A stretch of 64,000 nucleotides of DNA, taken from Amycolatopsis nigrescens CSC17Ta-90 (lineage in GTDB: Bacteria; Actinomycetota; Actinomycetes; Mycobacteriales; Pseudonocardiaceae). Position numbers and translations under genes: made by a program. Below the pieces are notes generated by a model. It saw only the letters and a program-made list of their open reading frames with translations, was not told the origin of the DNA and ran no database searches. This document shows, one piece after another, positions 20,942 through 58,420 of this stretch (positions are counted from its first letter, which is position 1; the number at the start of each line of letters is the position of its first letter). Location: contig NZ_ARVW01000001.1 in assembly GCF_000384315.1 (NCBI RefSeq), positions 3,534,157-3,598,156 of the forward strand. Reading direction: 5' to 3'.

Positions 20942-20992
20942 CCCTTAAGGCCACCTTTGCTACCTCAGAGGTAGCAAAGGTGGCCTTAAGGG
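20942..20992. terminator. Perfect 51-bp palindrome (family B, divergent copy), bidirectional terminator
   Basis: Two 25-bp arms (CCCTTAAGGCCACCTTTGCT... from 20942; complement ending 20992) separated by a single A at 20967. It starts 3 bp after the dehydrogenase stop and ends 13 bp before the stop of convergent ponA, so it can serve both. The core AAGGCCACCTT is shared with the elements at 26344 and 58368. Confidence 0.85.
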
Positions 20993-21005
20993 ACTGGGGC
21001 CAGGG

Positions 21006-23870
21006 CTAGTTGTCGTCCGGGGGTCTGGAGAAGAAGGCGCCGCCGCCGCTCTCGTTGCCCCGGTTGCCGCCATTTCCGTTGTTGCCGCCGTTGTTGCCGC
21101 CGATCGGCCAGCCGGGCAGGCCGGTGGTCGGCCTGCCGGTCTCGGAGGTGGAGGTCTCCGGGGTCGAGGTCTCCGGCGTGGACGTCTCCGGGGTGGAGGT
21201 CTCCGACGACTGGTTGGGCGTGCTGCTCGGTGGCGGCCGCTGCGAGCTGGACGGCGGTGCCTCCTTCGCCGGCGCCTTGCCGATCATCTTGACGTCCGCG
21301 AACTTCTCGTTCGGCTTGCCCTTCAGGTAGCCGTCCATGAACTTCTGCCAGAGCTGCGCCGGCAGCCCGCTGCCGTAGATCGACTTGCCGGTCTTCTTGT
21401 CGCGGATCACTTCCTTCGGGCCCCCGTAGGTGCCCACCCAGGACGCGACCGAGATCGACGGGGTGTAGCCGGCCATCCAGGCCTGGTTGTTGTCCTTGCT
21501 GTCGTCGGCCTGCTGGGTACCGGTCTTGCCGGCGCACTCGTGCCCGTTCGCGCAGCGCAGCTTCGAGTGGGTGATCACCGGCTGCAGGGACCTGGTGACG
21601 TTCCCGGCGATCTGCTTGCTCTGCTCGGGGGTGTCCGAGAAAGCCGGCTTCGCTTCGGTGGGCGTCTCCAGCACGACTTCGCCGTCCGGCTTGGTCACCT
21701 TGGCCACGAAGTGTTGCTGCCGGCGCATGCCGTCGGCGGCGAAGGTGGCGTAGGCGCCGGCCATGTCCTCGGTGGTGACCGAGGTCTGGCCACCGCCGAT
21801 CGCGACGTTGTAGTCGCCCTGCACCATCGACGGCACGTTGCCGTGCTTCTCCGGGATGCCGGCCGCCTGCGCCGCGTCGATCACCGCGGGCACCTTGAGG
21901 TCGTTGACCACCATGTCCACGAACACGGAGTTCACCGACTTCTCCATGCCCTCGGCGACCGTGCACTTCGGGCTGTCGCAGTTGTCCACGTTGTTGATCG
22001 GCTGGGTCTGGAACCCCGGCGGGCCGAACCGCTTGCCCGCCATGCCCTCGTACGTCTCGCCGAGTCCCTTTCCGCGCTGCAGCAACGCGACCAGGTCGAA
22101 CGGCTTGTAGGAGGAACCGGGGCTGCGCGGGGTGTTCGCCCCGTCCCTGGCGTCTTCCTTGGTGTTGGGCCCGCCGTAGTAGGCGACGATTCCGCCGGTC
22201 TTCGGATCGACGGCGACCAGCGCCTCCTTGAGGTCGACCTTCTGGCCGTCCTGGCCCTTCATCACCTCGTCCACCGTCTCCACCGCGAGCTGCTGCGCCT
22301 TGGGGTCGATGGTGGTCTGGATGACGTAGCCGCCGGCCTGGACCTTCTCCTCCGGGTAGCCCTGCGCCTCGAGCTCGGCCAGGATCCGCTTCTGGATCTG
22401 CGCGTTCGGGCCCTTCATCGACTGCGGCTTGGCGTCCTCGGCGGAGATCATCGCGGGGAACTGGGCCGCCGCGCGGTCCGCCTTGGCCAGCCAGTTGTTC
22501 TGCACCATCTGGTCCATCACGTAGGTCCAGCGGCGGTTGGCGTACTCCATGTTCTCGGACTTGCCGGGACCCTGGATCATGCCGGCCAGCAGTGCGGCCT
22601 CGGACGGGCCGATGTCCTGCACGTTCTTGCCGAAGTACGCCTGCGAAGCGGTCTGGACCCCGTACGCGCCACGGCCGAAGTAGATGGTGTTCAGGTAGGC
22701 CGTGATGATGTCCGACTTGGACTGCTCGTTGTTCATCTTGAAGGCCTTCACCAGCTCGGTCGCCTTACGGGTGATCGTGGCGTCCTCGTTCTCGGTGGCC
22801 TTCTTGATGTACTGCTGGGAAATGGTCGAGCCACCACCGGTACCGCCGGTGAGCTGGTTCTTGACCGCGCCCAGGATGCCCATGATGTCGAAGCCGGGGT
22901 TCGTCTCGAAGCTCGAGTCCTCCGCCGCGTAGACCGCGTGCTTGACCACGTCCGGGATCTCGTTCGGCTTCATGATCTGGCGGTTGCCGCCCTGCGGCGC
23001 CACCTTGCCCATTTCCGAGCCGTCCGCGTAGTTGAAGGTGACCACCTGGTTCTGCTGGGCGGCGACCTCTTCCGGGGTGGGCACGTCCACGAAGAAGTAC
23101 ATGATGGTGAACGCCAGCGCCGGCAGCACCACGAACAGCCCGACCAGCACGTACAGCGTGCGGCGGACCCGCCGCCAGCGGCGCTTCTTGCGCTGCGCGG
23201 GGGTCAGCGGGGGCTTGTTCTTGCCGCCCTTCCCGTCACCGGCTGCGTCGGCCGGGTCATCTTGGTCGTCCGCGCCGAATTCGTTGAACCTGGCCTGCTC
23301 GCCGGAATGCCAGTCGTCATAACCATAACCGTCGTCGTACCCGTCGTTGTCGACACGGCTGTCGTAGCGGTCGTCGAAACGGTCGTTCGGCCCGGTGCCG
23401 TTGTGCTCGTGGTGCGTGAGCAGCTCGGGTTCGCGGTCGGTCGGGCCGAGCCGCTGGCCGATCATGCCGGTCGGCTGCTCCACCATCGGCCGCCGCGGCG
23501 GGGGCGGCGGGGGCGGCGGGGATTGCGGCGGCTGCACGGGAGGCGGCATCGGGGGCGGTGGCTGCCGGTAGCCGCCGCGCGGCGGGGTGCCGGGCGGCGG
23601 GCCCATCGGGCGGCCGGGCGGTGGCTGCCGGGGCCTTGCCGGTGGGCGCAGGTCCGGGTCGCCGCCGGTGGGCCAGCCGGGGCCGGCGTCCTCGCCGCCG
23701 GGCCACTGGGGTGCCTGCGGCGCCGGGGGTGCTGCCTGCCGCGGCCGGCGGGGCGGCTCGTCACCGGACGGCCACTGGGGCGCGTACTGCTCGTCGCCGG
23801 TCGGCCATTGGGCGCGACGGTGTTGATCAGGCTCCTGGCCTGGCCAGGAGCGGTTGCGATGGTCGTTCAC
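21006..23870 (-). CDS. ponA: Bifunctional penicillin-binding protein (class A)
   Basis: A 954-residue peptidoglycan glycosyltransferase/transpeptidase. The first 236 residues are cytosolic and disordered: four W-P-x-G-[DE] repeats in the first 70, a Pro-rich stretch to 130, then an acidic stretch. A basic patch (AQRKKRRWRRVRR) precedes the single helix at about 239-261. GT51 motifs include the A-V-Y-A-A-E-D-S-S-F-E segment and G-G-G-S-T-I-S-Q-Q-Y-I-K. Transpeptidase motifs are S-S-Y-K near 584, S-V-N near 646 and K-T-G-T near 781. The tail (about 880-954) is Ser/Thr/Pro-rich with an E-T-S-T-P repeat. Position next to DUF5318, PadR and ino1 matches mycobacterial ponA1. Confidence 0.96.
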   Translation of the reverse strand: MNDHRNRSWPGQEPDQHRRAQWPTGDEQYAPQWPSGDEPPRRPRQAAPPAPQAPQWPGGEDAGPGWPTGGDPDLRPPARPRQPPPGRPMGPPPGTPPRGGYRQPPPPMPPPVQPPQSPPPPPPPPRRPMVEQPTGMIGQRLGPTDREPELLTHHEHNGTGPNDRFDDRYDSRVDNDGYDDGYGYDDWHSGEQARFNEFGADDQDDPADAAGDGKGGKNKPPLTPAQRKKRRWRRVRRTLYVLVGLFVVLPALAFTIMYFFVDVPTPEEVAAQQNQVVTFNYADGSEMGKVAPQGGNRQIMKPNEIPDVVKHAVYAAEDSSFETNPGFDIMGILGAVKNQLTGGTGGGSTISQQYIKKATENEDATITRKATELVKAFKMNNEQSKSDIITAYLNTIYFGRGAYGVQTASQAYFGKNVQDIGPSEAALLAGMIQGPGKSENMEYANRRWTYVMDQMVQNNWLAKADRAAAQFPAMISAEDAKPQSMKGPNAQIQKRILAELEAQGYPEEKVQAGGYVIQTTIDPKAQQLAVETVDEVMKGQDGQKVDLKEALVAVDPKTGGIVAYYGGPNTKEDARDGANTPRSPGSSYKPFDLVALLQRGKGLGETYEGMAGKRFGPPGFQTQPINNVDNCDSPKCTVAEGMEKSVNSVFVDMVVNDLKVPAVIDAAQAAGIPEKHGNVPSMVQGDYNVAIGGGQTSVTTEDMAGAYATFAADGMRRQQHFVAKVTKPDGEVVLETPTEAKPAFSDTPEQSKQIAGNVTRSLQPVITHSKLRCANGHECAGKTGTQQADDSKDNNQAWMAGYTPSISVASWVGTYGGPKEVIRDKKTGKSIYGSGLPAQLWQKFMDGYLKGKPNEKFADVKMIGKAPAKEAPPSSSQRPPPSSTPNQSSETSTPETSTPETSTPETSTSETGRPTTGLPGWPIGGNNGGNNGNGGNRGNESGGGAFFSRPPDDN
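21151..21210 (-). repeat. Four 15-bp tandem repeats in the ponA tail
   Basis: Units of gaggtctccggggtc with 1-4 changes at 21151, 21166, 21181 and 21196 encode the E-T-S-T-P array in the extracellular tail. Such in-frame arrays commonly vary in copy number between strains. Confidence 0.85.
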
Positions 23871-23952
23871 GAATGAGCCTCCCAGACCGGCGCACCGGGG
23901 TACGTCGTTCTGCGGTCAAGAGTCGTGCGCCTGTGCGCACCGTTGGCTACCG

Positions 23953-24351
23953 TCACTGCCCCGCGGTCCTCTTGGTAGGGCGCTGCGGTGTTCCCGTGCC
24001 CAGGACGTACGACTGCACCAGGTGGTTCCAGCTGCAAGATCGGCACACCTCCACCACGTAGACGGTGAACTCCCCGAAGAGGTTGGCCATCCTGGCGAGT
24101 TCGTCACGGGTCCTGGCCGAACCGGCCGCGTGCTTGAGCTCGTCGCCGTACACCCAGGAGACCAGGGTGAGTGCCTCCTTGCGGCACAGCGGGCAGCTCG
24201 CCTCGGTCGGTTCACCGTGGAACTTCGCAGCTCGGAGCAGGTACGGACTGGCGTCGCAGACGTCCGACGTGCCGACTCGGCCGGCATAGACGCCGGCGAG
24301 CAGCGCACGACGCTGCAACGCGTAGTCCACGACCTGCCGCTGGTTTCGCAC
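23953..24351 (-). CDS. DUF5318 protein (mycobacterial Rv0049-like)
   Basis: A 132-residue cytosolic protein beginning MRNQRQVVDYALQRRALLAG. It carries three cysteine clusters, V-C-D-A (about 28), C-P-L-C-R-K and C-R-S-C-S-W-N-H, that look like a zinc-binding site, and ends Y-V-L-G-T-G. Sequence and position between ponA and PadR match DUF5318 of mycobacteria. The GTG at 24351 is preferred over an ATG 25 codons upstream because the conserved region begins there and a TACTCT box ends 6 nt before it. Function unknown. Confidence 0.88.
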   Translation of the reverse strand: MRNQRQVVDYALQRRALLAGVYAGRVGTSDVCDASPYLLRAAKFHGEPTEASCPLCRKEALTLVSWVYGDELKHAAGSARTRDELARMANLFGEFTVYVVEVCRSCSWNHLVQSYVLGTGTPQRPTKRTAGQ

Positions 24352-24357
24352 GCTGAC

Positions 24358-24363
24358 AGAGTA
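24358..24363 (-). promoter_or_regulatory. Probable -10 box of the DUF5318 gene (leaderless start)
   Basis: TACTCT on the minus strand, 6 nt before the GTG at 24351. It supports the shorter start. Confidence 0.5.
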
Positions 24364-24516
24364 CGTGCCCGGAGTAGGGCTGCCATGAGCCGTTCTGCCT
24401 AGTGATCGCCGGCCGTCTCGCGACACGCCGGCTTTTCCATAACACTCCGGTGAACTTCAGGGGGTAATTCGTTCACTCGGACGGTCGGCTGAAAGGTTAC
24501 GTACACCACTTCGATG

Positions 24517-24533
24517 TATCGGCGCGATATACT
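24517..24533 (+). promoter_or_regulatory. padR promoter with overlapping palindrome
   Basis: TATACT (24528-24533) is a good -10 box. It overlaps the right arm of TATCG (24517-24521) / CGATA (24525-24529), a short palindrome placed where a PadR repressor would block its own promoter. The rest of the 263-bp gap between DUF5318 and padR shows no gene. Confidence 0.5.
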
Positions 24534-24614
24534 CGGCCGGTAGGTTGCGAGAGTCGGCAGGCAGATCCATGGCAACGCCTGACGCGGCCGTTTGTTCCCG
24601 GAAGGGGGTGCGTC

Positions 24615-25178: not shown

Positions 25179-25236
25179 GCCGCCGCGATTCGGCGTCACC
25201 TACATCACAGACAAACGAGTTGAAGGAGAAACCGGC

Positions 25237-26328: not shown

Positions 26329-26343
26329 CTTTCTCCTCCAAGG

Positions 26344-26398
26344 TGCAGCGAAGGCCACCTTGCCTGCGTTGGATGCAGGCAAGGTGGCCTTCGCTGCA
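26344..26398. terminator. Palindromic repeat, family B (24-bp arms)
   Basis: Arms TGCAGCGAAGGCCACCTTGC... (26344-26367) and complement (26375-26398) pair perfectly around a 7-nt loop. It sits between convergent ino1 and the HAD gene, 15 bp from one stop and 3 bp from the other. It is 50/55 identical to the element at 58368. Confidence 0.85.
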
Positions 26399-26400
26399 TT

Positions 26401-27051: not shown

Positions 27052-27058
27052 GCCCCGC

Positions 27059-27064: not shown

Positions 27065-27077
27065 CCTGTGCGGCAAA

Positions 27078-27111: not shown

Positions 27112-27117
27112 AGCTAA

Positions 27118-31060: not shown

Positions 31061-33148
31061 TTGTCCACCCGCTTTGACCTGCCGTTATTTCCCCACCACT
31101 CCGGCGGTCGTTCGGCCGTCACCTGCGAGTACCGCTGCGGCAACGCCTGTGCGCACGACGCGCCGAACACCTCCGGCAACGAGTACTTCGGCGATGTCGT
31201 CAAGGACGTCGTTTCCCGTCGTGGCGCGCTGAAGGCCAGTGCGGTGATGGCGGTGGCGGCGGGCGGGTTCGCCGCGTTGTCTCCTACCGCGGCCGCCGCC
31301 GAGCCGGAGGTCCCCGCACCGCTGGCCGGGAAGCGTCCCGGTCGCCCGGTGCGCGGCACCGACTTCGACGCGGTGCCGCCGAACAAGGCGGACGCGGTCA
31401 CCATCCCGGACGGCTACGCGCAGAACGTGGTCATCCGCTGGGGGGACGCGGTGGTGCCGGGCGCACCGAAGTTCGACTTCACCAAGCAGACCGCGGCCGC
31501 GCAGGAGAAGCAGTTCGGCTACAACAACGACTTCGTCGGGCTGATCCCGCAGGACCCGCTCGGCCTGCGCAACCTGCTGGTGGTCAACCACGAGTACTCC
31601 ACCGAAGTGCACATGTTCCCGGCGGATCAGTACGACAAGAACAATCCGACCGAGGAGCAGGTCAAGATCGCCTGGGCTGCGCACGGGCTGAGCGTGGTGC
31701 AGGCCTGGCGCGACCCGGTGGCCGGCGGGCTGCGCGTGGTGCCCAGCAGGCAGAACCGGCGGATCACGCTGAACACCGAGTTCGAGGTGCGCGGCCCGGC
31801 GGCGGGCTCGAAGTTCCTGCAGACCTCCGCCGACCCGAGCGGGCGCAAGGTGTTCGGCACCCAGAACAACTGCGCCGGCGGGGTCACCCCGTGGGGCACC
31901 GTGCTCTCCGGTGAGGAGAACTTCAACCAGTACTTCGCGAACGCGGACAAGGTGACCGACCCGGTAGCGCAGGCAAGGCAGAAGCGGTACGGCCTCGCCG
32001 GCGGCGCGAGCACCCGGAAGTGGGAGCGGTTCGACAAGCGATGGGACATCGCGCAGGAGCCGAACGAGCCGAACCGGTTCGGCTGGGTGGTGGAGATCGA
32101 CCCGAACGACCCGCACTCCACCCCGGCCAAGCACACCCACCTCGGCCGGTTCAAGCACGAGGCGGCCAACATCAAGATCACCAAGGACGGTCGGGTCGCG
32201 GTCTACTCCGGTGACGACGAGCGGTTCGACTACATCTACAAGTACGTGTCCAAGGGCAAGTACAAGAAGGGCAGCAGCGCACTGGCGCGGCGGCACAACT
32301 CGGCCCTGCTCGACGACGGCACGCTGTACGTCGCGAAGTTCACCGGCGACAGCCCGGCCGCGGAGATCGACGGCACCGGCAAGCTGCCCGCGGACGGCGA
32401 GTTCGACGGCACCGGCGAGTGGATCCCGCTTGCCAGCGGCGACAAGTCCTTTGTGGACGATTTCACCGCGGAGGAGGTGTACGTGTTCACCCGGCTCGCC
32501 GCGGACAAGGCCGGGGCCACCAAGATGGACCGCCCGGAGGACATCGAGCCGAACCCGGTGAACGGCCGGATCTACGCCGCGCTGACCAACAACACCGACC
32601 GCGGCGCGGCCGGCAAGGCCGGGGCGGACGAGCCGAACCCGCGGGTGCGCAACAAGAACGGCCACGTGCTGGAGTGGGAGGAGGCCGGTGGCGACTCGGC
32701 CGCCACCCGGTTCTCCTGGCGGCTGCTGCTGGTCTGCGGTGACCCCAAGGCCGCGGACACCTACTTCGGCGGCTTCCCCAAGGACCAGGTCTCGCCGATC
32801 TCGTGCCCGGACAACGTGGCCTTCGACCGGCACGGCAACCTGTGGATCTCCACCGACGGCAACACCCTCGGCGCAAACGACGGGCTGTTCTCGGTGCCGG
32901 TGGACGGCCCCGAGCGCGGCCACGTGAAGCAGTTCCTTTCGGTGCCGGTCGGTGCCGAAACCTGCGGCCCGGTGGTCACCGACCATCTGGTCCTGGTCGC
33001 CGTGCAGCACCCCGGTGAGGACGCGGAGAACTCGGCGAACCCGACCTCGCACTGGCCCGACGGCGGCAAGTCGCAGCCGCGCCCGTCCATCGTCTCGGTC
33101 TGGAAGAAGGGCCATTTCGGCTTCCCCGGCCAGATCGGCGTCCGCTAA
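31061..33148 (+). CDS. phoX: PhoX-type alkaline phosphatase (DUF839), copy 2
   Basis: A 695-residue paralogue of copy 1 with the same layout: C22-x3-C26-x3-C30, Tat motif at Arg 53-54 (VSRRGALKAS), an A-x-A region near 75-80, the N-N-C-A-G-G-V-T-P-W-G-T segment (Cys near 271) and S-G-E-E-N-F-N-Q-Y-F. Identity to copy 1 is high over the whole mature protein, so this is a fairly recent tandem duplication. TTG start with GGAGG 5 nt upstream. Unlike copy 1 it has a clear PHO box upstream. A palindromic repeat follows the stop by 5 bp. Confidence 0.93.
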   Translation: MSTRFDLPLFPHHSGGRSAVTCEYRCGNACAHDAPNTSGNEYFGDVVKDVVSRRGALKASAVMAVAAGGFAALSPTAAAAEPEVPAPLAGKRPGRPVRGTDFDAVPPNKADAVTIPDGYAQNVVIRWGDAVVPGAPKFDFTKQTAAAQEKQFGYNNDFVGLIPQDPLGLRNLLVVNHEYSTEVHMFPADQYDKNNPTEEQVKIAWAAHGLSVVQAWRDPVAGGLRVVPSRQNRRITLNTEFEVRGPAAGSKFLQTSADPSGRKVFGTQNNCAGGVTPWGTVLSGEENFNQYFANADKVTDPVAQARQKRYGLAGGASTRKWERFDKRWDIAQEPNEPNRFGWVVEIDPNDPHSTPAKHTHLGRFKHEAANIKITKDGRVAVYSGDDERFDYIYKYVSKGKYKKGSSALARRHNSALLDDGTLYVAKFTGDSPAAEIDGTGKLPADGEFDGTGEWIPLASGDKSFVDDFTAEEVYVFTRLAADKAGATKMDRPEDIEPNPVNGRIYAALTNNTDRGAAGKAGADEPNPRVRNKNGHVLEWEEAGGDSAATRFSWRLLLVCGDPKAADTYFGGFPKDQVSPISCPDNVAFDRHGNLWISTDGNTLGANDGLFSVPVDGPERGHVKQFLSVPVGAETCGPVVTDHLVLVAVQHPGEDAENSANPTSHWPDGGKSQPRPSIVSVWKKGHFGFPGQIGVR

Positions 33149-33153
33149 CCCGC

Positions 33154-33197
33154 TCGTGAGTGAAAAGTGTTGTCCCGGCAACACTTTTCACTCACGA
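33154..33197. terminator. Palindromic repeat, family A, copy 1
   Basis: TCGTGAGTGAAAAGTGTTG (33154-33172) and its exact complement (33179-33197), 6-nt loop. It lies between convergent phoX and the MFS gene, and the MFS stop codon (33188-33190) is inside the right arm. Related copies occur at 42782 and 53352. Confidence 0.85.
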
Positions 33198-34504
33198 CGG
33201 CTGACCTGCGGTTTTGCTCCGAGGGCGAGCGCGACGCAGGCGGCGGCGACCATGCAGGCGCCGACCGCCCACATCCCGGTGCGCTGGCTGCCGGTCAGGT
33301 CCCGCAGCCAGCCGGTGATGTAGGGCGCGGCGAACCCGCTGATGTTGCCCAGCGAGTTGATCAGCGCGATGCCGCCAGCCGCGGCCGCGCCGGAGAGGAA
33401 GTTCGACGGCAGCGCCCAGAAGGTGGGCAGTGCCGCGCACACGCCGACCGCGCAGACCGTCACCGCCACCATGGCGGCGAACGGGTTGCCGAGGTAGAGC
33501 GCGATCGGGATGGCCAGCCCGCCGAGCAGCATCGGCAGCGCCACATGCCATTTCCGCTCGCCGGTCCGGTCGCCGTGGCGCGCCCACAGCACCATCGCCA
33601 CCGCGCCGATCACATACGGGATGGCGTTGATCAGGCCGGACTCCCAGGTGCTGAAGTTCGTCCCGAACTGCTGCTTGAACCCGGCGATGATGGTGGGCAG
33701 GAAGAAACCGAGCGCGTACAGGCCGTACGCGATTCCGAAGTAGACAAAGGCGAGGCCGAGGATGCGCGGGTGGGTCAGTGCCTTGCGCAACGGCCAGTGG
33801 TGCTCGGCTTCGGTGGCCCGCCGTTCGGCGTCCAGCTCGGCGGCCAGCCAGCTCCGTTCGTCTTCGCTCAGCCATTTCGCCTGCTCGGGCCGGTCGGTCA
33901 GGTAGTACCAGGTGACCACCGCGAGCAGGATCGCCGGGATGCCCTCCACCAGGAACATGAACCGCCAGCCGGACAGCCCGAACACCCCGTGCCCGCCGCT
34001 GATCAGCAGGCTGGACACGGTGGAGCCGATCGCCGAGGACACCGGGACCGCCGCCATGAACAGCGCGACCGCCTTCGCCCGCTGCGACGCCGGGAACCAG
34101 TAGGTCAGGTACAGGATGATGCCGGGGAAGAAACCGGCCTCCGCCACGCCGAGCAGGAAACGCAGGATTACCAGGGTGGTCGGATTCGGCACGAAGGCCA
34201 TCACGGTGGCCACCACACCCCAGGTGATCATGATCCGGGCCAGCCAGCGGCGGGCGCCGAACCGGTGCAGCGCCAGGTTGCTCGGCACTTCCAGTACCAG
34301 GTAGCCGAGGAAGAACACACCCGAGGCGAAACCGAAGGCGGTGGCGGTCAGGCCGAGTTCTTTGTTCATCCCGTTCGGCCCGGCGAAGCCGATGTTGACC
34401 CGGTCCAGGTAGTTCACGAAGTACAGCAGCGCCAGGAACGGCATGATGCGCAGCGCGACCTTGCGCAGCACCCGGTTGCCGTGCTGATCAACGGGAGAGT
34501 CCAT
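33188..34504 (-). CDS. MFS transporter, anion:cation symporter (ACS) type
   Basis: A 438-residue, 12-helix uptake transporter. N-Y-L-D-R-V-N-I-G-F-A-G (residues about 31-42) in helix 1 and F-L-L-G-V-A-E-A-G-F-F-P-G in helix 4 are the signatures of the phthalate/tartrate/glucarate permease group, which take up organic acid anions. Helix 2-3 loop is L-A-L-H-R-F-G-A-R-R-W. The last codons (V-S-R-R-E-stop) run into the family A palindrome. No catabolic gene or dedicated regulator is adjacent, so the substrate is open. Confidence 0.92.
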   Translation of the reverse strand: MDSPVDQHGNRVLRKVALRIMPFLALLYFVNYLDRVNIGFAGPNGMNKELGLTATAFGFASGVFFLGYLVLEVPSNLALHRFGARRWLARIMITWGVVATVMAFVPNPTTLVILRFLLGVAEAGFFPGIILYLTYWFPASQRAKAVALFMAAVPVSSAIGSTVSSLLISGGHGVFGLSGWRFMFLVEGIPAILLAVVTWYYLTDRPEQAKWLSEDERSWLAAELDAERRATEAEHHWPLRKALTHPRILGLAFVYFGIAYGLYALGFFLPTIIAGFKQQFGTNFSTWESGLINAIPYVIGAVAMVLWARHGDRTGERKWHVALPMLLGGLAIPIALYLGNPFAAMVAVTVCAVGVCAALPTFWALPSNFLSGAAAAGGIALINSLGNISGFAAPYITGWLRDLTGSQRTGMWAVGACMVAAACVALALGAKPQVSRRE

Positions 34505-42781: not shown

Positions 42782-42827
42782 GTCGTGAGTGGAAAGTGTT
42801 GCCCAAGCAACACTTTCCACTCACGAC
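42782..42827. terminator. Palindromic repeat, family A, copy 2
   Basis: GTCGTGAGTGGAAAGTGTTG (start 42782) pairs perfectly over 21 bp with the arm ending 42827, loop CCAA. The trmB stop (42821-42823) is inside the right arm. The 20 bp beyond the palindrome also match copy 3 at 53396. Confidence 0.85.
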
Positions 42828-43534
42828 GTCTGAGCTGGGGAAACGCGCTCGAAGACGAGGTCGTGGGAGACGCGGCCCTCGGCGTTGGCGCGGTTTTCGA
42901 ACTTGGTGACCGGCCGCCAGTCCGGCCGCGGCGCCCAGCCGTCGTGCCGGTTGCGCAGCAGTGGCTCGGCCGAGCACACCGCGAGCATCTGCTCCGCGTA
43001 GTGCTCCCAGTCGGTGGCCAAGTGCAGGGTCGCCCCCGGCGCCAGCCGGGACGCCACCAGCGCGACGAACGCGGGCTGCACCAGCCGCCGCTTGTGGTGC
43101 TTCTTCTTCGGCCAGGGGTCCGGGAAGAAGATCCGCACCCCGGACAGCGAGTCCGGCTCGATGTGCCTGGTCAGCAGCACCACGGCGTCCCCGTGCAGCA
43201 GCCGCAGGTTCGCCACGCCGAGGTTGTCCGCGCGGAGCATCAGCTGGCCGAGCCCGGCCTCGTACACCTCGACCGCGACGTAGTTGAGCTCCGGCGCGGC
43301 CGCGGCCAGCTGGGACGTGGTCTCGCCCATGCCGGAGCCGATCTCCAGCAGCACCGGCGCCGGGCGGCCGAACCATTCGGTGAAGTCCACCGGACCGGGG
43401 GGAAGTTCGGCCACTTTCCGGCCGAGCTCCGGCCACCGGTCCCGCCAGGCCCGCTCCTGGCCGACGGTCATCCGACCGCCGCGCTGCACGTAACTGACCA
43501 CGCTGCGCAGGCGTGGTTGCCGCTCACTCTCCAC
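42821..43534 (-). CDS. trmB: tRNA (guanine-N7-)-methyltransferase
   Basis: A 237-residue SAM-dependent enzyme that makes m7G46 in tRNA. SAM loop L-L-E-I-G-S-G-M-G-E-T-T (about 61-72), the TrmB hallmark I-F-F-P-D-P-W-P-K-K-K-H-H-K-R-R (near 133-148), and V-T-K-F-E-N-R-A near the end. GTG 43534 gives the conserved V-E-S-E-R-Q-P-R-L-R-S-V-V-S-Y-V start; a more upstream ATG would add ten residues rich in Cys/Arg. The final V-S-P-A-Q-T-S and stop are encoded partly by the family A palindrome and its flank. Confidence 0.95.
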   Translation of the reverse strand: MESERQPRLRSVVSYVQRGGRMTVGQERAWRDRWPELGRKVAELPPGPVDFTEWFGRPAPVLLEIGSGMGETTSQLAAAAPELNYVAVEVYEAGLGQLMLRADNLGVANLRLLHGDAVVLLTRHIEPDSLSGVRIFFPDPWPKKKHHKRRLVQPAFVALVASRLAPGATLHLATDWEHYAEQMLAVCSAEPLLRNRHDGWAPRPDWRPVTKFENRANAEGRVSHDLVFERVSPAQTS

Positions 43535-48054: not shown

Positions 48055-48110
48055 GGCAAATAGCCGACTTCTTGCCCTTTCGGTGTGGGGCAAAAAGTCG
48101 GCTATTTGCC
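48055..48110. terminator. Palindromic repeat, family C, copy 1
   Basis: GGCAAATAGCCGACTTCTTG... (48055-48077) pairs with 48088-48110 over 23 bp with one mismatch, 10-nt loop. It begins 2 bp after the SDR stop. Copy 2 lies 1,050 bp further, at the end of the next gene. Confidence 0.85.
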
Positions 48111-48219: not shown

Positions 48220-49113
48220 GTGAGAACACCAAGATGCATGCCGGACATCACCGGACCATTCCTCGGCAGCCATGCCCTGTCCGAGGGCTGGCTGACCGCG
48301 AAGCAGCTCCGCTCACCCGCACTGGGACGACTGTTTCGCGGCGTGTACGTACCGGCCAAGATGCCGGTCACCCACGAGCTGCGTTGTCAGGCAGCCGCCT
48401 TGATCGCGCCAGGTCCGGCGGTGCTCACCGGCTGCTCGGCGGTCACGGTGCGCGGCCTGCCGCTTGCCGACGCCAGAGACCCGGTCGAATTTCTGGTTCC
48501 CGACCTGGCGAAGTTCGTCGCGCAGCCCGGCCTCGACATCAAACGCACCGATCTGGCCAAGGCCGAGTTCGAGGATTGGGAACCGGTACGGCTGGCCACC
48601 CCGTTGCGTGCGACTCTGGACATCCTGACCAGCACCAGGCTGCGGAAGTCGCTGATGCGCACGGTGGCGTTGCTGGATTCGCTGCTCCGCGCCGAGTTCG
48701 TCGAACGCGCGGCGCTGCGGACCTTTCTCGAGCACAGGCATGACCACGGCGTGGTCCGCGCTCGCCGGGCGCTGGAGCTCGCCGACCCGCGTGCCGAGTC
48801 GATCCCCGAATCGGAGTTGCGTGTCCTGCTGAAACTGAACGGGTTCGACTTCGTGCCGCAACTCGATGTGGTCGTGCACGGCCAGTTCCTGGCCAGGCTC
48901 GACCTGGCTGTCGAGGAGTGCCGGCTCGCGGTCGAGTACGACGGTCAATGGCATCAGGAAGCCGCGCAGACGGAACGGGACATCGAGCGCCGGAGGCGTT
49001 TGGCGGCGGCGGGCTGGGAGGTCATCGTCGTGACCAAGGAGTGGCTGTACGGCGCTCCGCTCGACCTGGTCGACACCGTCCGCCTGGCACTGGCCCGCCG
49101 TACCGGCAAATAG
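48220..49113 (+). CDS. AbiEi-like / DUF559 nuclease-fold protein
   Basis: A 297-residue protein. Residues about 15-110 resemble the winged-helix antitoxin-like domain common in these actinobacterial proteins (G-W-L-T-A-K-Q-L-R-S, F-R-G-V-Y-V, L-T-G-C-S-A-V-T-V-R-G-L-P-L). The C-terminal 100 residues are a DUF559/Vsr-like PD-(D/E)XK fold: P-E-S-E-L-R-V-L-L near 192, R-L-D-L-A-V-E-E near 228, and V-E-Y-D-G-Q-W-H near 241-248, with R-R-R-R-L-A-A-A-G-W-E-V-I-V after it. Cleavage activity is not established for such proteins. The stop codon TAG lies inside family C copy 2. Starts further downstream (ATG 48235) are possible. Confidence 0.78.
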   Translation: MRTPRCMPDITGPFLGSHALSEGWLTAKQLRSPALGRLFRGVYVPAKMPVTHELRCQAAALIAPGPAVLTGCSAVTVRGLPLADARDPVEFLVPDLAKFVAQPGLDIKRTDLAKAEFEDWEPVRLATPLRATLDILTSTRLRKSLMRTVALLDSLLRAEFVERAALRTFLEHRHDHGVVRARRALELADPRAESIPESELRVLLKLNGFDFVPQLDVVVHGQFLARLDLAVEECRLAVEYDGQWHQEAAQTERDIERRRRLAAAGWEVIVVTKEWLYGAPLDLVDTVRLALARRTGK

Positions 49114-49160
49114 CCGACTTTTTGCCCTTTCGATCGAGGGCGAAAAGCCGGCTATTTGCC
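49105..49160. terminator. Palindromic repeat, family C, copy 2
   Basis: GGCAAATAGCCGACTTTTTG... (49105-49127) pairs with 49138-49160 over 23 bp, one G-U type and one true mismatch, 10-nt loop. It contains the DUF559 stop (49111-49113) and ends 5 bp before the stop of the convergent response regulator. Confidence 0.85.
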
Positions 49161-52798: not shown

Positions 52799-52812
52799 AG
52801 GGGTGATAGACG

Positions 52813-53349
52813 GTGTCTTCGTGGTTCCGCAGGGAGAGCCGGGCGGGTCAGCGGAAGCTGGAGGACCTGCCGACCGGCAAGATCCCGGCCAAGGTCATCG
52901 CGGACGCCGAGGCCGAGATGGACAAGCAGCAGGACAAGCCTGCCGAGCAGCCGGAAGAGCAGGGAACCGCCGAGCGGGCCGATGCGTCGGACTCCGATGT
53001 GGACCCCGTACCAGCAGTCGTCACGCATGCCACCGGTGCCGGCCCCGGCGCGCTCGAGCAGGCGCTGGCCGACCGGCTGGCGCTGATCCACCTCTGCCTC
53101 TACGCGATGGACCGGGCGCGCAGCGGCGGCGTGGTGGAACGATTGCAGCAGGGGCTCGCCGGGATCGGGGTGACCGCGCTGCGGCCGGACGGCCAGCGGT
53201 TCGACCCGGCGCTGCACGAGGCTGGCGGTGCGGTGGTGACCGACGACGAGTCGCTGGTCGGCACCGTGGCGGAGACCGAGGTGGTCGGCTTCAGCGACCA
53301 GGACCGGCTCCTCCGCGCGCCCATCGTCACCGTCTACACCCAGCGCTGA
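52813..53349 (+). CDS. GrpE-like nucleotide exchange factor
   Basis: A 178-residue protein. After a basic start (SSWFRRESRAGQRKL) and an acidic, Gln/Glu-rich 60-residue stretch, residues about 85-178 read as the C-terminal half of GrpE: L-Q-Q-G-L-A-G-I-G-V, L-R-P-D-G-Q-R-F-D-P-A-L-H-E-A, D-E-S-L-V-G-T-V, and D-R-L-L-R-A-P-I-V-T-V-Y. The long paired helix of true GrpE is short or missing. GrpE accelerates nucleotide exchange on Hsp70; no Hsp70 gene is in the window. Its place between two dynamin-like genes is striking. Confidence 0.75.
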   Translation: MSSWFRRESRAGQRKLEDLPTGKIPAKVIADAEAEMDKQQDKPAEQPEEQGTAERADASDSDVDPVPAVVTHATGAGPGALEQALADRLALIHLCLYAMDRARSGGVVERLQQGLAGIGVTALRPDGQRFDPALHEAGGAVVTDDESLVGTVAETEVVGFSDQDRLLRAPIVTVYTQR

Positions 53350-53351
53350 CC

Positions 53352-53395
53352 TCGTGAGTGGAAAACGTTGTCCGGACAACACTTTCCACTCACGA
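53352..53395. terminator. Palindromic repeat, family A, copy 3
   Basis: TCGTGAGTGGAAAACGTTGT... (53352-53373) pairs with 53374-53395 over 22 bp with two mismatches. It starts 2 bp after the GrpE-like stop and separates it from the second dynamin-like gene. The 20 bp after it match the flank of copy 2. Confidence 0.8.
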
Positions 53396-53434
53396 CGTCT
53401 GATCTGGGGAAACCTGCGGGCGAGCGGTAGCCGT

Positions 53435-53440
53435 TAGGCT
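53435..53440 (+). promoter_or_regulatory. Probable -10 box of the second dynamin-like gene (leaderless start)
   Basis: TAGGCT ending 7 nt before the GTG at 53448, so this gene probably has its own promoter despite the tight spacing. Confidence 0.5.
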
Positions 53441-53447
53441 CAGCGCC

Positions 53448-55280
53448 GTGACCGCACCCGCCACCCTGAACCTGCCCGCACAGGTGAAGCAGGCCCGTGA
53501 GGCGCTGTTCACCCTGCTGCGCGAAACCGACCCGAAGGCGGCGAGCTGGGTCGAGGAGATCCGCCGCGCCAGGCCGCGGAAACCGTCCGTGGTGGTGGTC
53601 GGCGAGACCAACCGCGGCAAGAGCTCGCTGGTCAACGCGCTGCTCGCGACCCCGGGCCTGTCGCCGGTGGACGCGGACGTTTCCACCGCCACCTACCTGG
53701 TGTTCGAGCATGCCGAGCAGTGGGCCGCGCAGGCCTGCTACCCGGGGCAGCTGGCCCCGGTCCCGGTCCGGCTGGACGAGCTGATCCGCTGGGTGTCCGC
53801 CGCGCACGAGCTGCCCGAAGGCCAGCTCCCGCCCCGTTACGTCGAGGTCGCCGGGCCGGTGCCGCTGCTGGAGCGGGTGACCGTGGTGGACACGCCCGGC
53901 GTCGGCGGGCTGGACGCGATGCACGGCGAGCTGGCCATGGAGGCGGCCGCCAGCGCCACCGCGCTGCTGTTCGTGGTGGACGCCTCGGCCCCGTTCACCG
54001 CCGGTGAGCTGCAGTTCCTGCGCACCATGGGCGAGCGGGTGGAGACCGTGCTGTTCGCGCTGTCCAAGGTCGACCAGTTCCGCGGCTGGCGCGAGGTGCT
54101 GGAGGCGGACCGGCGGCTGCTGGCCGAGCACGCGCCGCGGTTCACCGGCGCGGTGTTCCACCCGGTGTCCGCGCGGATGTTCGAGATGGCGGCCAAGGCG
54201 CCGAACGAGCAGGCCGCCGCCATGCTGCGGGAACGATCCGGGGTCGCCGAGCTGCAGGCCGCGTTGCAGGAGGAGCTGGTCGGCAAGTCCGCGATGCTCG
54301 GTGAGGCGAACACGCTGCGGGCCCTGTCCAGCGCGCTCGGCGAGCAGCACGCCAGGCTGCAGGCGGAACGCCGCGCGTTGTCCTCCGGTGAGGCGGAGGC
54401 CGAGTCGCTGCGCGAGCGCCGGGACGCCCTCGCCGTCGAGCGCAGGTCCTCCACCCGTGGCTGGCAGGTGAAGCTGCGCGGCGAGATCCAGCGGACCAGG
54501 GTGGAGATCGGGCACGAGGGCGCCAGGCAGATGCGGGACGCGCAGGCATGGTTCCGCTCCCAGATCGACGCCGCCAAACGGGAACAGCTGCAGGACCTGC
54601 CCCGGCAAGTGGACCTGGCGCTGCAGACCATTTCGCAGCGGGCTTCCGGCGCGTTGTCCGAGCGGCTCAACCGGGTGACCGACGTGGCGCTGTCCGAGCT
54701 GTTCTCGGCGGAGGAGCTGGACGTGATCCGCGCCCAGTTCGCCAGGGCGGGCGGGCCGGCGGTGGTGCTGCGCCCGCCGGAGAAGCGCCCGCCCACCGCC
54801 GAGGACAAGCTGCTGGTGTTCATGGGCGTCTCGGGCGGGGTCGGGGCCGGCAAGCTGGTGGCAGCGCCGCTGGTCGGCGTGCTGGTCAGCCCGATCATCC
54901 TGCCCGCCACCATCGTGATCGGCCTCGGTGCCGGCTGGTGGATGGCGCGGACCCGGCGGCACGCCGCGGACAAGCAGCACCTGAAGCAGTGGCTGGTGGA
55001 GTCGATCGCGGATGCCAGGTCCACCCTGGACCAGCTGGTCGCCGAGCAGCTGATCGAGGCGGAGCAGCAGCTTTCGCTGGCGCTCGACGAAGCGCTCGGC
55101 AGGCGGATCGAAGCGATCGAAGCCGAACTGAAAGATGTCGACAAGACGATAAAAATGGGCGATCAGGAGCGGGCCAGGCAGCTGGCCGCGGTGACCCGGC
55201 GGCTCAAGGACGTCACCGAGGGTCGCGATCGGGCGGAGGCCTTCCTCGCCAAGATGCGGACGCTGCGCGACCAGCGCTGA
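53448..55280 (+). CDS. Dynamin-like GTPase with membrane hairpin, second of a pair
   Basis: A 610-residue dynamin-family protein. G1 G-E-T-N-R-G-K-S-S (52-60), G3 D-T-P-G-V-G (148-153), G4 S-K-V-D (206-209). A long helical stalk follows; residues about 460-500 are hydrophobic (VAAPLVGVLVSPIILPATIV then GLGAGWWMA), consistent with a membrane paddle or hairpin, and the last 100 residues form a charged coiled coil. Layout resembles mycobacterial IniA and Streptomyces DynA. Together with the soluble partner upstream it may form a hetero-complex that shapes or seals membrane. Confidence 0.87.
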   Translation: MTAPATLNLPAQVKQAREALFTLLRETDPKAASWVEEIRRARPRKPSVVVVGETNRGKSSLVNALLATPGLSPVDADVSTATYLVFEHAEQWAAQACYPGQLAPVPVRLDELIRWVSAAHELPEGQLPPRYVEVAGPVPLLERVTVVDTPGVGGLDAMHGELAMEAAASATALLFVVDASAPFTAGELQFLRTMGERVETVLFALSKVDQFRGWREVLEADRRLLAEHAPRFTGAVFHPVSARMFEMAAKAPNEQAAAMLRERSGVAELQAALQEELVGKSAMLGEANTLRALSSALGEQHARLQAERRALSSGEAEAESLRERRDALAVERRSSTRGWQVKLRGEIQRTRVEIGHEGARQMRDAQAWFRSQIDAAKREQLQDLPRQVDLALQTISQRASGALSERLNRVTDVALSELFSAEELDVIRAQFARAGGPAVVLRPPEKRPPTAEDKLLVFMGVSGGVGAGKLVAAPLVGVLVSPIILPATIVIGLGAGWWMARTRRHAADKQHLKQWLVESIADARSTLDQLVAEQLIEAEQQLSLALDEALGRRIEAIEAELKDVDKTIKMGDQERARQLAAVTRRLKDVTEGRDRAEAFLAKMRTLRDQR

Positions 55281-55410
55281 GCGTCGAAGATTGCCTGGAC
55301 GTGCCCGGTTGTGCGGCGGAACCGAACCGGCATACGGTGAGTCAGAGGTTTCGACTGGTTTCGACAAGATGGACCCCGGCCACGGCCGGTGACGAGATGG
55401 GGAGTCTCCT

Positions 55411-56106
55411 GTGTGGGTCGACGAAAGCGGTAGTGCCGACACAACCGACACCACCGGCGCCTCGGACCAGATGGCGATCAGCGTGGAGGGTCAGGAGTAC
55501 TCCGCCGAGGTCAACTTCGACCTCGACCAGGACGGCACCGACGAGACCGCCCGGATCGAGCACGAGGACGGCACGGTGGTCGGCTACTCCGACACCGACC
55601 ACGACGGCCGCGCGGACCAGTACCTGCACGTGGACGCGCAGGGCAACGTGCTGGAGAGCGCCCGGTTCGACGAGGCCAGCGGCCAGTGGGTGGCCACCGA
55701 TCCGGAAGGGCCTGGCGCGCCGGGCGACAGCACGGACACCAGCGGCGACGGCGGCATGACCGCCGACATGCAGGAGGGCGACGTCAACGTCGGCCCGGCC
55801 ACCGTCGACTCGGACCACGACGGCCGCAACGACACCGCCGTGGTGCAGGACGACCAGGGCAACACCCGGATGTTCACCGACGTGGACGGCGACGGCAAGG
55901 CCGACGTGCAGACCATCGTCGACCCGAGCGGCAACTCCACCACCTACAGCCACACCGGCGACGGCGAGTGGACCGAGATGCCGCCGTCGAGCGGGGTCGC
56001 GCCGGCGCCGAGCAGCGACCAGGTGTGGGGCTGGTCCAGCCAGGACACCGTGGAGGGCGTCGCCAAGATCGACTCCGCCACCGGGCAGTGGATCAGCCAG
56101 AACTAG
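55411..56106 (+). CDS. DUF6802-like protein with four calcium-binding-type loops
   Basis: A 231-residue acidic protein. D-x-D-x-D-G loops occur at 37-42 (D-L-D-Q-D-G), 61-66 (D-T-D-H-D-G), 133-138 (D-S-D-H-D-G) and 157-162 (D-V-D-G-D-G), in two pairs, resembling dockerin/EF-hand or FG-GAP-type calcium loops. A linker (95-125) separates the pairs, and a Trp-containing tail W-G-W-S-S-Q-D ends the protein. There is no signal peptide, so export would need a type VII or other route. From memory it fits DUF6802. GTG start after GGGGAG. A strong terminator follows. Confidence 0.72.
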   Translation: MWVDESGSADTTDTTGASDQMAISVEGQEYSAEVNFDLDQDGTDETARIEHEDGTVVGYSDTDHDGRADQYLHVDAQGNVLESARFDEASGQWVATDPEGPGAPGDSTDTSGDGGMTADMQEGDVNVGPATVDSDHDGRNDTAVVQDDQGNTRMFTDVDGDGKADVQTIVDPSGNSTTYSHTGDGEWTEMPPSSGVAPAPSSDQVWGWSSQDTVEGVAKIDSATGQWISQN

Positions 56107-56123
56107 CGGCTCATCGGCGACCC

Positions 56124-56153
56124 AAAGCCCGGCACTTCGGTGCCGGGCTTTTT
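56124..56153 (+). terminator. Intrinsic terminator with TTCG tetraloop
   Basis: AAAGCCCGGCAC (56124-56135), TTCG, then the complement (56140-56151) and a short T-run. Classic rho-independent form after the DUF6802-like gene. Confidence 0.95.
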
Positions 56154-56308
56154 GCGCTGCCGGACGGCGCTGAACCGCAGGTGAACGCCCCTTTTCCGGC
56201 AATCCGCCCTAGTTGTTCAGGCTAAGCATTCGGCGCTGGCTGCACCGATGGGGTGACCAAGGTCAAAACCGCTGCTCCGAACGGGGAGGAAAGTCTTTCG
56301 TTCTGGCG

Positions 56309-56330
56309 CGATTCAGGCGGATCTGAATCG
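56309..56330. promoter_or_regulatory. Inverted repeat in the pckG upstream region
   Basis: CGATTCAG (56309-56316) and CTGAATCG (56323-56330), perfect 8-bp arms with 6-nt spacer, in the 375-bp gap before pckG, which holds no gene. It is a candidate site for a regulator of gluconeogenesis. Confidence 0.5.
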
Positions 56331-56420
56331 ATTCCCTGATCGTTCCTGTGAGAGAACCGACAGGACAGCCCTCGGTTACCTGCTGGCCACCCCGCTACGC
56401 TCGGGGAATCCCAAAAACCT

Positions 56421-56444
56421 GCACACCGGTTCCCGCCGGTGTGC
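56421..56444 (+). promoter_or_regulatory. Hairpin in the pckG leader
   Basis: GCACACCGG (56421-56429) and CCGGTGTGC (56436-56444), 6-nt loop, 87 bp before the start codon. It may stabilise or control the leader; no riboswitch class recognised. Confidence 0.4.
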
Positions 56445-56530
56445 GAAGCCATTCGGTCGCCGGCGATGGAGCCCGCTTCGGACGTAGTCGTTCGGTGTGG
56501 GCTTCTTCTCGTCGGAGTTCAGGAGAAGAG

Positions 56531-58354
56531 ATGACTGCAGTAGCCATCCCCGGGCTGGACAAGGCACCCACGTCGCACAGTGGTGTGTTGTCCTGGGTCC
56601 GGGAGGTCGCTGAGCTGACCACCCCGGACCGAGTGGTGTGGGTGGACGGCTCCGACGAAGAAGCCGCGCGCATCAACGCCGAACTCGTCGAAGCAGGCAC
56701 GTTCGTGCCGCTGAAGTCGAAGCCGAACTCCTACTGGGCCGCCTCGGACCCCGATGACGTGGCGAGGGTCGAGGAGCGCACCTTCATCTGCTCGGAGAAC
56801 GAGCAGGACGCCGGGCCGACCAACCACTGGCGGGACCCGGTCGAGATGAAGGCGACCATGACCGAGCTCTACCGGGGCTGCATGCGCGGTCGCACGATGT
56901 ACGTCATCCCGTTCTGCATGGGCCCGCTCGGCGACGAGAACCCGAAGCTGGGCATCGAGATCACCGACTTCGCCTACGTGGTCGCCTCGATGAACGTGAT
57001 GACCCGCGCCGGCAAGAAGGCGCTGGACAAGTTCGTCACCGAGGACGGCACCGAGCGCGAGTTCGTGCCCGCGCTGCACTCGGTCGGCGCGCCGCTGGAC
57101 GAGGGCCAGCAGGACGTGCCGTGGCCGTGCAACACCACCAAGTACATCACCCACTTCCCGGAGAGCCGCACCATCTGGAGCTACGGCTCCGGCTACGGCG
57201 GCAACTCGCTGCTCGGCAAGAAGTGCTACTCGCTGCGCATCGGTTCGGTGATCGCGCGGGACGAGGGCTGGCTCGCCGAGCACATGCTGATCCTGAAGCT
57301 GATCTCGCCGGAGAACGAGGTGCACTACGTCGCGGCGGCCTTCCCGTCCGCCTGCGGCAAGACGAACCTCGCCATGCTGCAGCCGACCATTCCCGGCTGG
57401 CGCGCGGAGACCCTCGGCGACGACATCGCGTGGATGCGCTTCGGCGACGACGGCAGGCTGTACGCGGTGAACCCGGAGTTCGGGTTCTTCGGCGTGGCGC
57501 CGGGCACCGACTGGCACACCAACCCGAACGCGATGCGCACCATCGAAAAGGGCAACACCGTGTTCACCAACGTCGCGCTGACCGACGACGGGGACATCTG
57601 GTGGGAGGGCATGGAGAACACGCCTTCGCACGCGACTTCGTGGAAGAAGCAGGACTGGACCCCCGACTCCGAGGAGAAGGCGGCGCACCCGAACTCGCGC
57701 TACTGCACGCCGATGTCGCAGTGCCCGATCCTGGCGCCGGAGTGGGACGACCCCAAGGGTGTGCCGATCTCGGCGATCCTGTTCGGCGGCCGCCGCAAGA
57801 CCACCGTGCCGCTGGTGAACGAGGCCCGCGACTGGCAGCACGGCGTGTTCATGGGCGCCACCATGTCCTCGGAGAAGACCGCGGCCGCGGCCGGCACGGT
57901 CGGCGAGGTGCGCCGCGACCCGATGGCCATGCTGCCGTTCCTCGGCTACCACGCCGGTGACTACTTCAAGCACTGGCTGGACCTCGGCAAGAACGCCGAC
58001 GCGGCGAAGCTGCCGAAGATCTTCTACGTGAACTGGTTCCGCCGTGGCGACGACAAGCGCTTCCTGTGGCCGGGATTCGGTGAGAACTCGCGGGTGCTGA
58101 AGTGGATCATCGACCGGGTCGAGGGCCGCGGCAACGCGGTGGAGACCCCGGTCGGGTTCGTGCCCACCGCGGCGGACCTGGACACCGAGGGCCTCACCGA
58201 GCCGATCGAGGACATCCAGGCCGCGCTCGCCGTGGACCCAGCGGAATGGCGCGAGGAGCTCCCGCTGATCGAGGAGTGGTTCGAGAAGATCGGTGACCGC
58301 GTCCCGGCCGGTCTCCGCGACGAACTCGACCAGCTCGCCCAACGCCTCGCCTGA
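56531..58354 (+). CDS. pckG: Phosphoenolpyruvate carboxykinase (GTP)
   Basis: A 607-residue enzyme making PEP from oxaloacetate with GTP, the first step of gluconeogenesis. GTP-class marks: [10 protein letters not shown], the H-S-V-G-A-P and [15 protein letters not shown] segments, the kinase loop [11 protein letters not shown] near 275-285, L-G-D-D-I-A-W-M-R near 297, and [10 protein letters not shown] near 423. ATG follows AGGAGAAG; upstream in-frame codons are leader. Full length. A family B palindrome follows the stop by 13 bp. Confidence 0.98.
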
Positions 58355-58367
58355 CCCAGCCCTATAT

Positions 58368-58420
58368 GCAGTGAAGGCCACCTTGCCTGCGTTCAACGCA
58401 GGCAAGGTGGCCTTCGCTGC
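58368..58420. terminator. Palindromic repeat, family B (26-bp arms)
   Basis: GCAGTGAAGGCCACCTTGCC... (58368-58393) pairs with 58395-58420 around a single C; the one non-identity gives a G-U pair in RNA. Nearly identical to the element after ino1. Confidence 0.85.

Follow-up and report, generated by a model that had tools for sequence, protein, structure and literature searches.

The stretch of DNA analysed here (the window, 64,000 nucleotides at positions 3534157-3598156 of the single-contig 9,111,009-base genome of Amycolatopsis nigrescens CSC17Ta-90; 70% GC) contains eight long palindromes at the 3' ends of genes, which belong to three sequence families designated A, B and C. An earlier note on the same DNA had described these palindromes and had suggested that they are copied units. 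They are listed below by window position together with the genes whose ends they adjoin.

20942..20992, no strand: B1, family B palindrome of the CCCTTAAGGCCACCTTTGCTACCTC subfamily; occupies most of the gap between convergent Gfo/Idh/MocA-type oxidoreductase and penicillin-binding protein genes
26344..26398, no strand: B2, family B palindrome; lies in the convergent pair of ino1 (plus strand, ends 26328) and a HAD hydrolase gene (minus strand, stop 26401)
31061-33148, plus strand: phoX, left neighbour of A1 (Pfam)
33154..33197, no strand: A1, family A palindrome of 44 bp between convergent phoX and MFS (major facilitator superfamily) genes (inverted-repeat search; fold -36.1 kcal/mol)
33188-33190, minus strand: stop of the MFS gene, right neighbour of A1, within the right arm of A1 (gene calls, Pfam)
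33198..33215, plus strand: one-sided tail of A1, consensus CGCTGACCTGCGGAAAC (alignment of A copies)
ends 42735, plus strand: FtsX-type permease gene, left neighbour of A2 (gene calls, Pfam)
42782..42827, no strand: A2, family A palindrome of 46 bp, with the permease gene on its left and a trmB-type methyltransferase gene on its right
42821-42823, minus strand: stop of the trmB-type methyltransferase gene, within the right arm of A2 (gene calls, Pfam)
42828..42844, plus strand: tail of A2; encodes, with the adjoining arm, the TrmB C-terminal residues SPAQTS
48055..48110, no strand: C1, family C palindrome, 2 nt past the stop of a short-chain dehydrogenase gene; the next gene is codirectional and 310 nt off
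49105..49160, no strand: C2, family C palindrome, with a DUF559-type gene on its left and a convergent response-regulator gene (stop 49166) on its right
53352..53395 (full repeat 53339-53408), no strand: A3, core of a family A palindrome with an imperfect inner stem; codirectional setting, 2 nt past the stop of a GrpE-domain gene
53396..53413, plus strand: tail of A3 (alignment of A copies)
56348-58354: pckG, the gene upstream of B3 (Pfam)
58368..58420, no strand: B3, family B palindrome, 13 nt past pckG; codirectional with a luciferase-like monooxygenase gene

All eight were recovered as long inverted repeats, ranking 1-6, 8 and 10 by length among those of the window, and their predicted folds range from -36 to -56 kcal/mol (z -7.4 to -11.8). 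A search of the window against Rfam gave no match reaching the gathering score. Each element has an edge no more than 15 bp from a stop codon, as described before, and at A1, A2 and C2 the stop codon lies inside the element. For example, GGCAAATAG in C2 provides the TAG stop (49111-49113) of the DUF559-type gene, and the tail and arm of A1, read on the minus strand, encode the final residues QVSRRE of the MFS protein. A2 begins 46 nt from the stop of its left-hand gene, yet contains the stop of its right-hand gene, and an ordinary hairpin can be seen by eye ahead of it on the left side. The A copies of the window have 38-39 bases in common pairwise, C1 and C2 match at 49 of 56 positions, and B2 and B3, at the ends of ino1 and pckG (both confirmed by Pfam), agree at 49 positions in direct and 50 in reversed alignment, the latter being the 50 of 55 that had been reported; B1 belongs to a more distant B subfamily, with only 33 matches to B2.

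Families, anatomy and placement of the palindromes across the genome

Searches of the whole genome found 157 strict copies of family A and 107 of family B (cores of 40 and 41 bases, respectively, in all copies listed) and, with a pattern of the outer arms, 35 copies of family C, with no matches to the reversed control pattern in any of the three cases. Because of these copy numbers against none for the reversed patterns, and given the fold z-scores, a chance origin is ruled out; the earlier note had accepted that chance would be indicated if the copies of the window were the only ones in the genome. A half-pattern of family A matched 361 times, 314 of these matches belonging to the 157 strict pairs, and a lone half of the A palindrome, without its partner arm, lies at genome position 502, close to the contig start.

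A de novo search for hairpins was made in 1.25 of the 9.11 Mb, comprising three blocks picked after matches had been seen or for their closeness to the window (0.9-1.1, 2.2-2.6 and 3.44-3.69 Mb) and two picked without regard to matches (5.0-5.2 and 7.5-7.7 Mb). It returned 118 hairpins of at least 15 net pairs: 40 of family A, 38 of B, 17 of C, 4 of a further family, D, and 19 others, so that A, B or C account for 95 and the four repeated sequences together for 99 of the strong hairpins. Family D (GCCCAACGTGACGTTTGGC) consists of 49-bp palindromes at genome positions 2406163, 2508964, 2534769 and 5003771, which are identical including the 11-nt loop apart from their orientation (two each way), and is perhaps a recently copied family. 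Look-alikes of family D with internally palindromic arms occur in two relatives, G041 and G008.

Most A elements are 44-46 bp long, most B elements about 50-57 bp and C elements about 56 bp; the arms in the window measure 19-26 nt and the stems comprise about 19-27 pairs. In 26 of 60 A copies a conserved one-sided tail of 20 bp lies outside the palindrome and gives the element an orientation (copies being counted as tailed at 14 or more of 20 matches to ACCGCTGACCTGCGGAAACG). At the other end, away from the tail, 11 of the tailed copies have CGTC, 8 have CCTC and the remainder GCTC or GGTC; the tail end reads GGTC in 17 of the 26, and CGTC or CCTC stands at one end in 21 of the 34 bare copies. 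It should be noted that the final two letters of this CGTC/CCTC-type end are part of the palindrome stem and vary, and that no tag of the GTAG/CGTC type was seen by eye at the ends of B and C. The arm of A reads CGTGAGTGA, which holds TGA in two frames. The B subfamilies differ by concerted changes in both arms, and the B copy at 2582380 appears by eye to combine the left arm of one subfamily with the right arm of another. Within B, C and D, the single arms are likewise seen by eye to form small inverted repeats of their own (AAGG..CCTT, GGC..GCC and AACGT..CGTT), making these elements nested palindromes. Two A palindromes, at genome positions 547303 and 926380, carry a similar GC-rich insert (CGGGTGCGGGTGTCCCGC..CACCG) in the loop or arm, which gives the impression of a second small repeat inserted into the element.

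Placement was determined with gene ends from a simple, self-written codon-usage caller, which missed some foreign genes. The 99 elements of families A-D lie at 63 convergent, 34 codirectional and 2 divergent junctions, while the 1,095 junctions sampled comprise 212 convergent, 673 codirectional and 210 divergent ones. Of the 93 A-C elements that adjoin the 3' end of a gene, 91 are no more than 20 nt away from the stop codon (A, 37/39; B, 37/37; C, 17/17). The distance to the upstream stop is also at most 20 nt for 32 of the 34 codirectional A-D elements, where uniform placement would give 10.9. The gene end overlaps the element in 42 of 153 cases (A, 25/63; B, 9/62; C, 8/28), and in 39 the whole stop codon is inside. 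Strong hairpins of three relatives also lie within 20 nt of stops (21/32 in G008, 15/16 in G021 and 12/16 in G041), with few stops inside the hairpin (2/43, 2/25 and 1/25 gene ends in the same order). Across the perfect inverted repeats of 118,019 genomes, the bacterial peak lies 50-80 bp past stop codons (PMC13155455; here and below, published work is cited from the portions of each source that were available). One gene overlooked by the caller, AbiEi-like although below the Pfam cut-off, lies between two A elements at genome positions 2291216-2292409, and the final residues VSGRE of its protein match the A tail and arm.

The palindromes have been copied and inserted

To compare the gene junctions with those of relatives, 16 A, B and C elements of the 250 kb surrounding the window, a block syntenic throughout with G021, were set against G021, G041 and G008; among the matches listed, the closest named ones to the PhoX protein come from Amycolatopsis and Prauserella species. 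This gave 27 comparable junctions, a further 2 being non-adjacent and 19 lacking an orthologue. None of the 27 carries the same family. No hairpin is present at 11, a class that depends on a cut-off of 12 net pairs, a different hairpin at 13, and a short motif of another family at 3. For instance, the gap orthologous to that of A3 has no hairpin in any of the three relatives, and at genome position 3661605, where this genome has an A element with its tail, only 6 and 13 bases separate the aligned ends in two relatives. Conservation of the same elements at the same loci, which the earlier note had named as an argument for chance or ancestral terminators, was thus not observed in these three relatives.

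Insertion has also altered the ends of proteins. The TrmB protein beside A2 ends in ...FERV-SPAQTS, all three orthologues end in ...FE(R/K)V, and the six added codons are element sequence. At the C copy at 3684809, the last residues of the right-hand protein, GK, are encoded by the element, and compared with the orthologues of G021, G041 and G008 this protein lacks 8, 20 and 5 residues, respectively; likewise, the protein left of C2 is 7 residues shorter than the sole orthologue found. The A copy at 3602186 is a weak case that was not counted as a truncation, its right-hand protein being 11 residues shorter than that of G021 and only 2 shorter than that of G008. The palindromes have therefore been copied and inserted, and the earlier proposal of copied units is supported by hundreds of copies, by the lack of the same family at orthologous junctions and by the element sequence in protein C-termini, its underlying observation being confirmed. 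The scale exceeds the first view, with several families, genus-wide relatives of two of them and insertion traces in proteins.

Relatives of these families were sought in 80 genomes of the genus. The outer arms of family A (GTCGTGAGTG ... CACTCACGAC) occur in 62 of the 80, with 0-356 copies in each and usually spanning 46 bp among the matches listed, and a B-type pattern occurs in 55 of the 80 (0-488 copies each). The inner sequence of A gave 0-2 matches in each of the other 79 genomes, a chance level like that of the control, and the outer arms of C were found in none of these 79. The A inner sequence and the C arms are thus private to this species among the 80 genomes. In a family-wide sample the A outer arms were found in 61 of 249 genomes. 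Those comprise 15 of the 17 genomes sampled from the genus and 46 of the 232 from outside the genus, which mostly have 1-4 copies. G138 stands apart from all other genomes of this sample, as its 32 such matches are accompanied by 20 to the reversed control; its count is therefore unsafe, and its matches are probably a different kind of repeat.

Inner stems were compared among A-type copies found with exact outer arms, so that the outer arm is fixed by construction, using rows hand-picked among the matches listed from which repeats, rows not 46 bases long and some others were omitted. The first comparison covered 14 of 14 copies of G031, 20 of 80 of G021, 12 of 25 of G082, 6 of 104 of G006 and 26 of 60 of this genome; the second covered 8 of 57 of G014, 8 of 70 of G007, 9 of 55 of G020 and 6 of 42 of G088. 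In the rows of the first comparison, the inner stem pairs at 0.68-0.93 within an element versus 0.25-0.57 across genomes, and in this genome at 0.93 within and 0.87 between elements. In G014, G007 and G021, A-type elements with two different inner arm types occur beside symmetric ones, which looks like an exchange or correction of halves.

Origin and possible role of the elements

These results are probably best explained by dispersed elements resembling repetitive extragenic palindromic sequences (REPs) and miniature inverted-repeat transposable elements (MITEs), which have been copied to new sites by a transposition-like process in this lineage and supply both a stop codon and a two-way 3' hairpin. 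The copies stand at the 3' ends of genes, in many cases precisely on the stop codon. There the arm can supply a new in-frame stop (TGA in A and TAG in C) and a very stable hairpin on either strand; one element could therefore close two convergent genes. Based on their position at gene ends and on the fold energies, we infer that the hairpins are two-way mRNA 3'-end structures, acting either as U-poor terminators or as barriers to 3'-exonucleases behind Rho-dependent termination.

The naming of REPs and MITEs as examples, which goes back to the earlier note, is less certain than the copying itself. REPs are small palindromes present in many copies; they lie between convergent or codirectional genes and in most cases no more than 20 bp from a 3' end. 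GTAG REPs frequently provide flanking open reading frames with a stop codon, CGTC REPs have stems of 8-9 bp and no dedicated transposase, and CGTC, TGTC and CCTC are also named as REP tags (PMC3733652). The elements described here share the high copy number, the 3'-end placement and the supply of stops; as in MITEs, the copies are dispersed and have empty sites. The CGTC or CCTC opposite the tail in 19 of the 26 tailed A copies is a form named for REPs as well, but it belongs to the stem of A, varies, and was seen in neither B nor C. In contrast to REPs, the stems comprise about 19-27 pairs, and the genome has no REP-associated tyrosine transposase (RAYT) gene. The available text of PMC3733652 contains no word beginning 'actino', the three actinobacterial species for which RepRanger gives REP candidates do not, in the portion available, include any of this genus (PMC12306157), and surveys of stem-loop families, in the portions available, covered mycobacteria and Corynebacterium and not this genus (PMC1590033, PMC2267715); prokaryotic MITEs have been reviewed (PMC10969869). 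No earlier description of these repeats was found among the matches listed from the open-licence literature.

The closest published idea of a mobile terminator-like repeat is SPRITE, the pneumococcal Rho-independent terminator-like element, which is thought to be non-autonomous mobile DNA (PMC3049150). It is likewise a terminator-shaped repeat family near 3' ends and enriched between convergent genes; however, SPRITE is AT-rich with AAAA/TTTT ends, and its authors, in the portion available, found no easily comparable empty site, whereas the present elements have hairpin-free junctions in relatives, protein fusions, no T-tracts and, for A and B, genus-wide relatives. Uptake sequences of Neisseria and Pasteurellaceae also form inverted repeats at gene ends, with a conserved sequence and a second role as terminators, but they are about 9-11 nt long and generally present in 1,000 or more copies (PMC1852404), while here whole palindromes of 44-57 bp with a species-specific sequence occur in tens to hundreds of copies. 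Among the mapped 3' ends of Streptomyces clavuligerus, 535 are highly structured, of which 353 are uridine-poor and may be I-shaped terminators or trimmed ends of Rho-dependent transcripts (PMC8269248). Such ends resemble the present elements in having a stable hairpin without a U-tract, although they are defined by their fold, whereas the present elements are repeats in their very sequence, with a stem that can include a stop codon. Of the two parts of an intrinsic terminator, the stable 3'-end hairpin is present and the U-tract is absent.

Several observations weigh against the explanation that we favor. The lack of a good T-tract, already remarked in the earlier note, is general, with three or more T in the 8 nt following the stem at only 8 of 80 A, 13 of 76 B and 9 of 34 C ends in the 1.25 Mb. 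In E. coli, the terminator tR2 is repressed by the ribosome when it lies a few bases from a stop codon (PMC4824070). By analogy, a terminating ribosome would hold open a hairpin that overlaps the stop, if transcription and translation are coupled; if the elements do terminate, transcription would therefore be uncoupled from translation there, and otherwise they may merely protect trimmed ends. Mycobacterial RNA polymerase has been reported to need a U-tract, which would favor protection over termination. The tail falls below 14 of 20 matches in 34 of 60 A copies, which leaves the extent of the moving unit in doubt. With regard to insertion, PhoX of the closest relative has 89% identity to that of this genome, which leaves room for loss in the relatives, rather than gain here, as the cause of some of the differences, and the other hairpin at 13 of 27 junctions makes replacement as common as an empty site. 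No target-site duplication was seen for A, the only family examined, in 26 tailed and 34 bare copies with uncertain boundaries, whose flanks are no more alike than shuffled ones. A search with PF01797 (Y1/RAYT) gave no matches in this genome, 5 of 14 control genomes being positive, which rules out a REP mobilised by its RAYT; other transposases or a parent element were not systematically searched for. Finally, the arms in G021 pair at 0.68 within versus 0.73 between elements, and those in G014 at 0.53 versus 0.50, which speaks against selection for the full stem in these genomes.

Two other accounts share part of this explanation, and neither is likely. Under the first, a sub-case of it, the elements would be classical MITEs, internally deleted copies of an insertion sequence mobilised in trans by a transposase that recognises the outer arms GTCGTGAGTG ... 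CACTCACGAC as terminal inverted repeats. The exact identity of these 10-bp arms in up to 356 copies per genome, with inner parts that differ in the rows sampled, the hairpin-free junctions and the copies in 46 sampled genomes outside the genus are all consistent with this account; a unit of merely about 44-66 bp, a one-sided tail unlike a simple MITE and the lack of a visible target duplication in A are not. No transposase was found in the two intervals between neighboring A copies that were inspected, a parent element not having been sought systematically. One interval, the 1.1 kb from 2291216 to 2292369, contains the AbiEi-like gene; in the other, 946470-947653, there is a DUF397 gene together with what by eye is an XRE-type regulator. 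A plasmid or phage origin was rejected, plasmid records giving no match for A2 or B2 and phage records none for B2, A being unsearched in phages and C in both. The second account concerns quasipalindrome correction, in which a nascent strand folds back and copies the other arm. The arms would then match without hairpin selection and the elements may be neutral; it accounts for the palindromy and not for the copying, and is compatible with the mobile part of the explanation favored above. The asymmetric two-arm-type versions in relatives (e.g., in the 8 rows of G014) and arms that pair no better within than between elements (G021, G014) mean that arm correction during replication could give palindromy without selection, to which are opposed the higher pairing within than between elements in this genome and a position at stop codons that would be extreme for neutral DNA. 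We consider both improbable, to about the same degree.

Gene conversion among existing two-way terminators, which would make them alike without any insertion, is a still weaker candidate. It would agree with the convergent placement and the stable stems, with the other hairpins at orthologous junctions, where a hairpin is often present anyway, and with B hybrids such as the copy at 2582380, which suggest recombination between copies. It is at odds with the 11 junctions that offer no hairpin of at least 12 net pairs to convert, with the C-terminal residues encoded by elements, with the absence of T-tracts, and with A2, where an ordinary hairpin like that of the relatives persists beside the added copy. 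Very unlikely, finally, are binding sites for a nucleoid protein, gyrase or a DNA-uptake system, kept at gene ends where they are harmless. The A outer arms are indeed identical letter by letter across species, beyond the needs of base pairing, and a connection with supercoiling or DNA uptake has been described for other palindromes at gene ends (PMC3733652, PMC1852404). However, three to four unrelated sequences coexist in one genome, the 35 to about 160 strict copies fall short of the 1,000 or more given for uptake sequences (PMC1852404), the A inner part and the C arms are private to one species, and a position a few bases from stops would not be required of a binding site.

Recently copied and sequence-conserved gene ends whose junctions are empty in relatives make a clean system for studying the birth of 3' ends, and for asking whether small palindromes are selfish, useful, or both. 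A stop codon inside a strong stem raises two testable questions in an actinobacterium, namely by what means genes lacking U-tracts are ended and whether translation is coupled to transcription; should the hairpins terminate despite the stop within the stem, the RNA polymerase of these bacteria must outpace the ribosome. A wider view, which we put forward tentatively and regard as doubtful, is that these are mobile gene ends of an actinobacterial family, in which an unrecognised enzyme would read the conserved outer arms and insert the element at stop codons, the inner stem being lineage-specific. If so, each insertion would give one or two genes at the same time a rewritten stop codon and a rewritten mRNA 3' end. 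For annotation, some C-terminal residues in this genome are element sequence and not ancestral protein.

Elsewhere in the window, positions 61205-61240 hold a 17-bp inverted pair containing TTGT(C/G)CACA, a motif that we take to resemble actinobacterial DnaA boxes.

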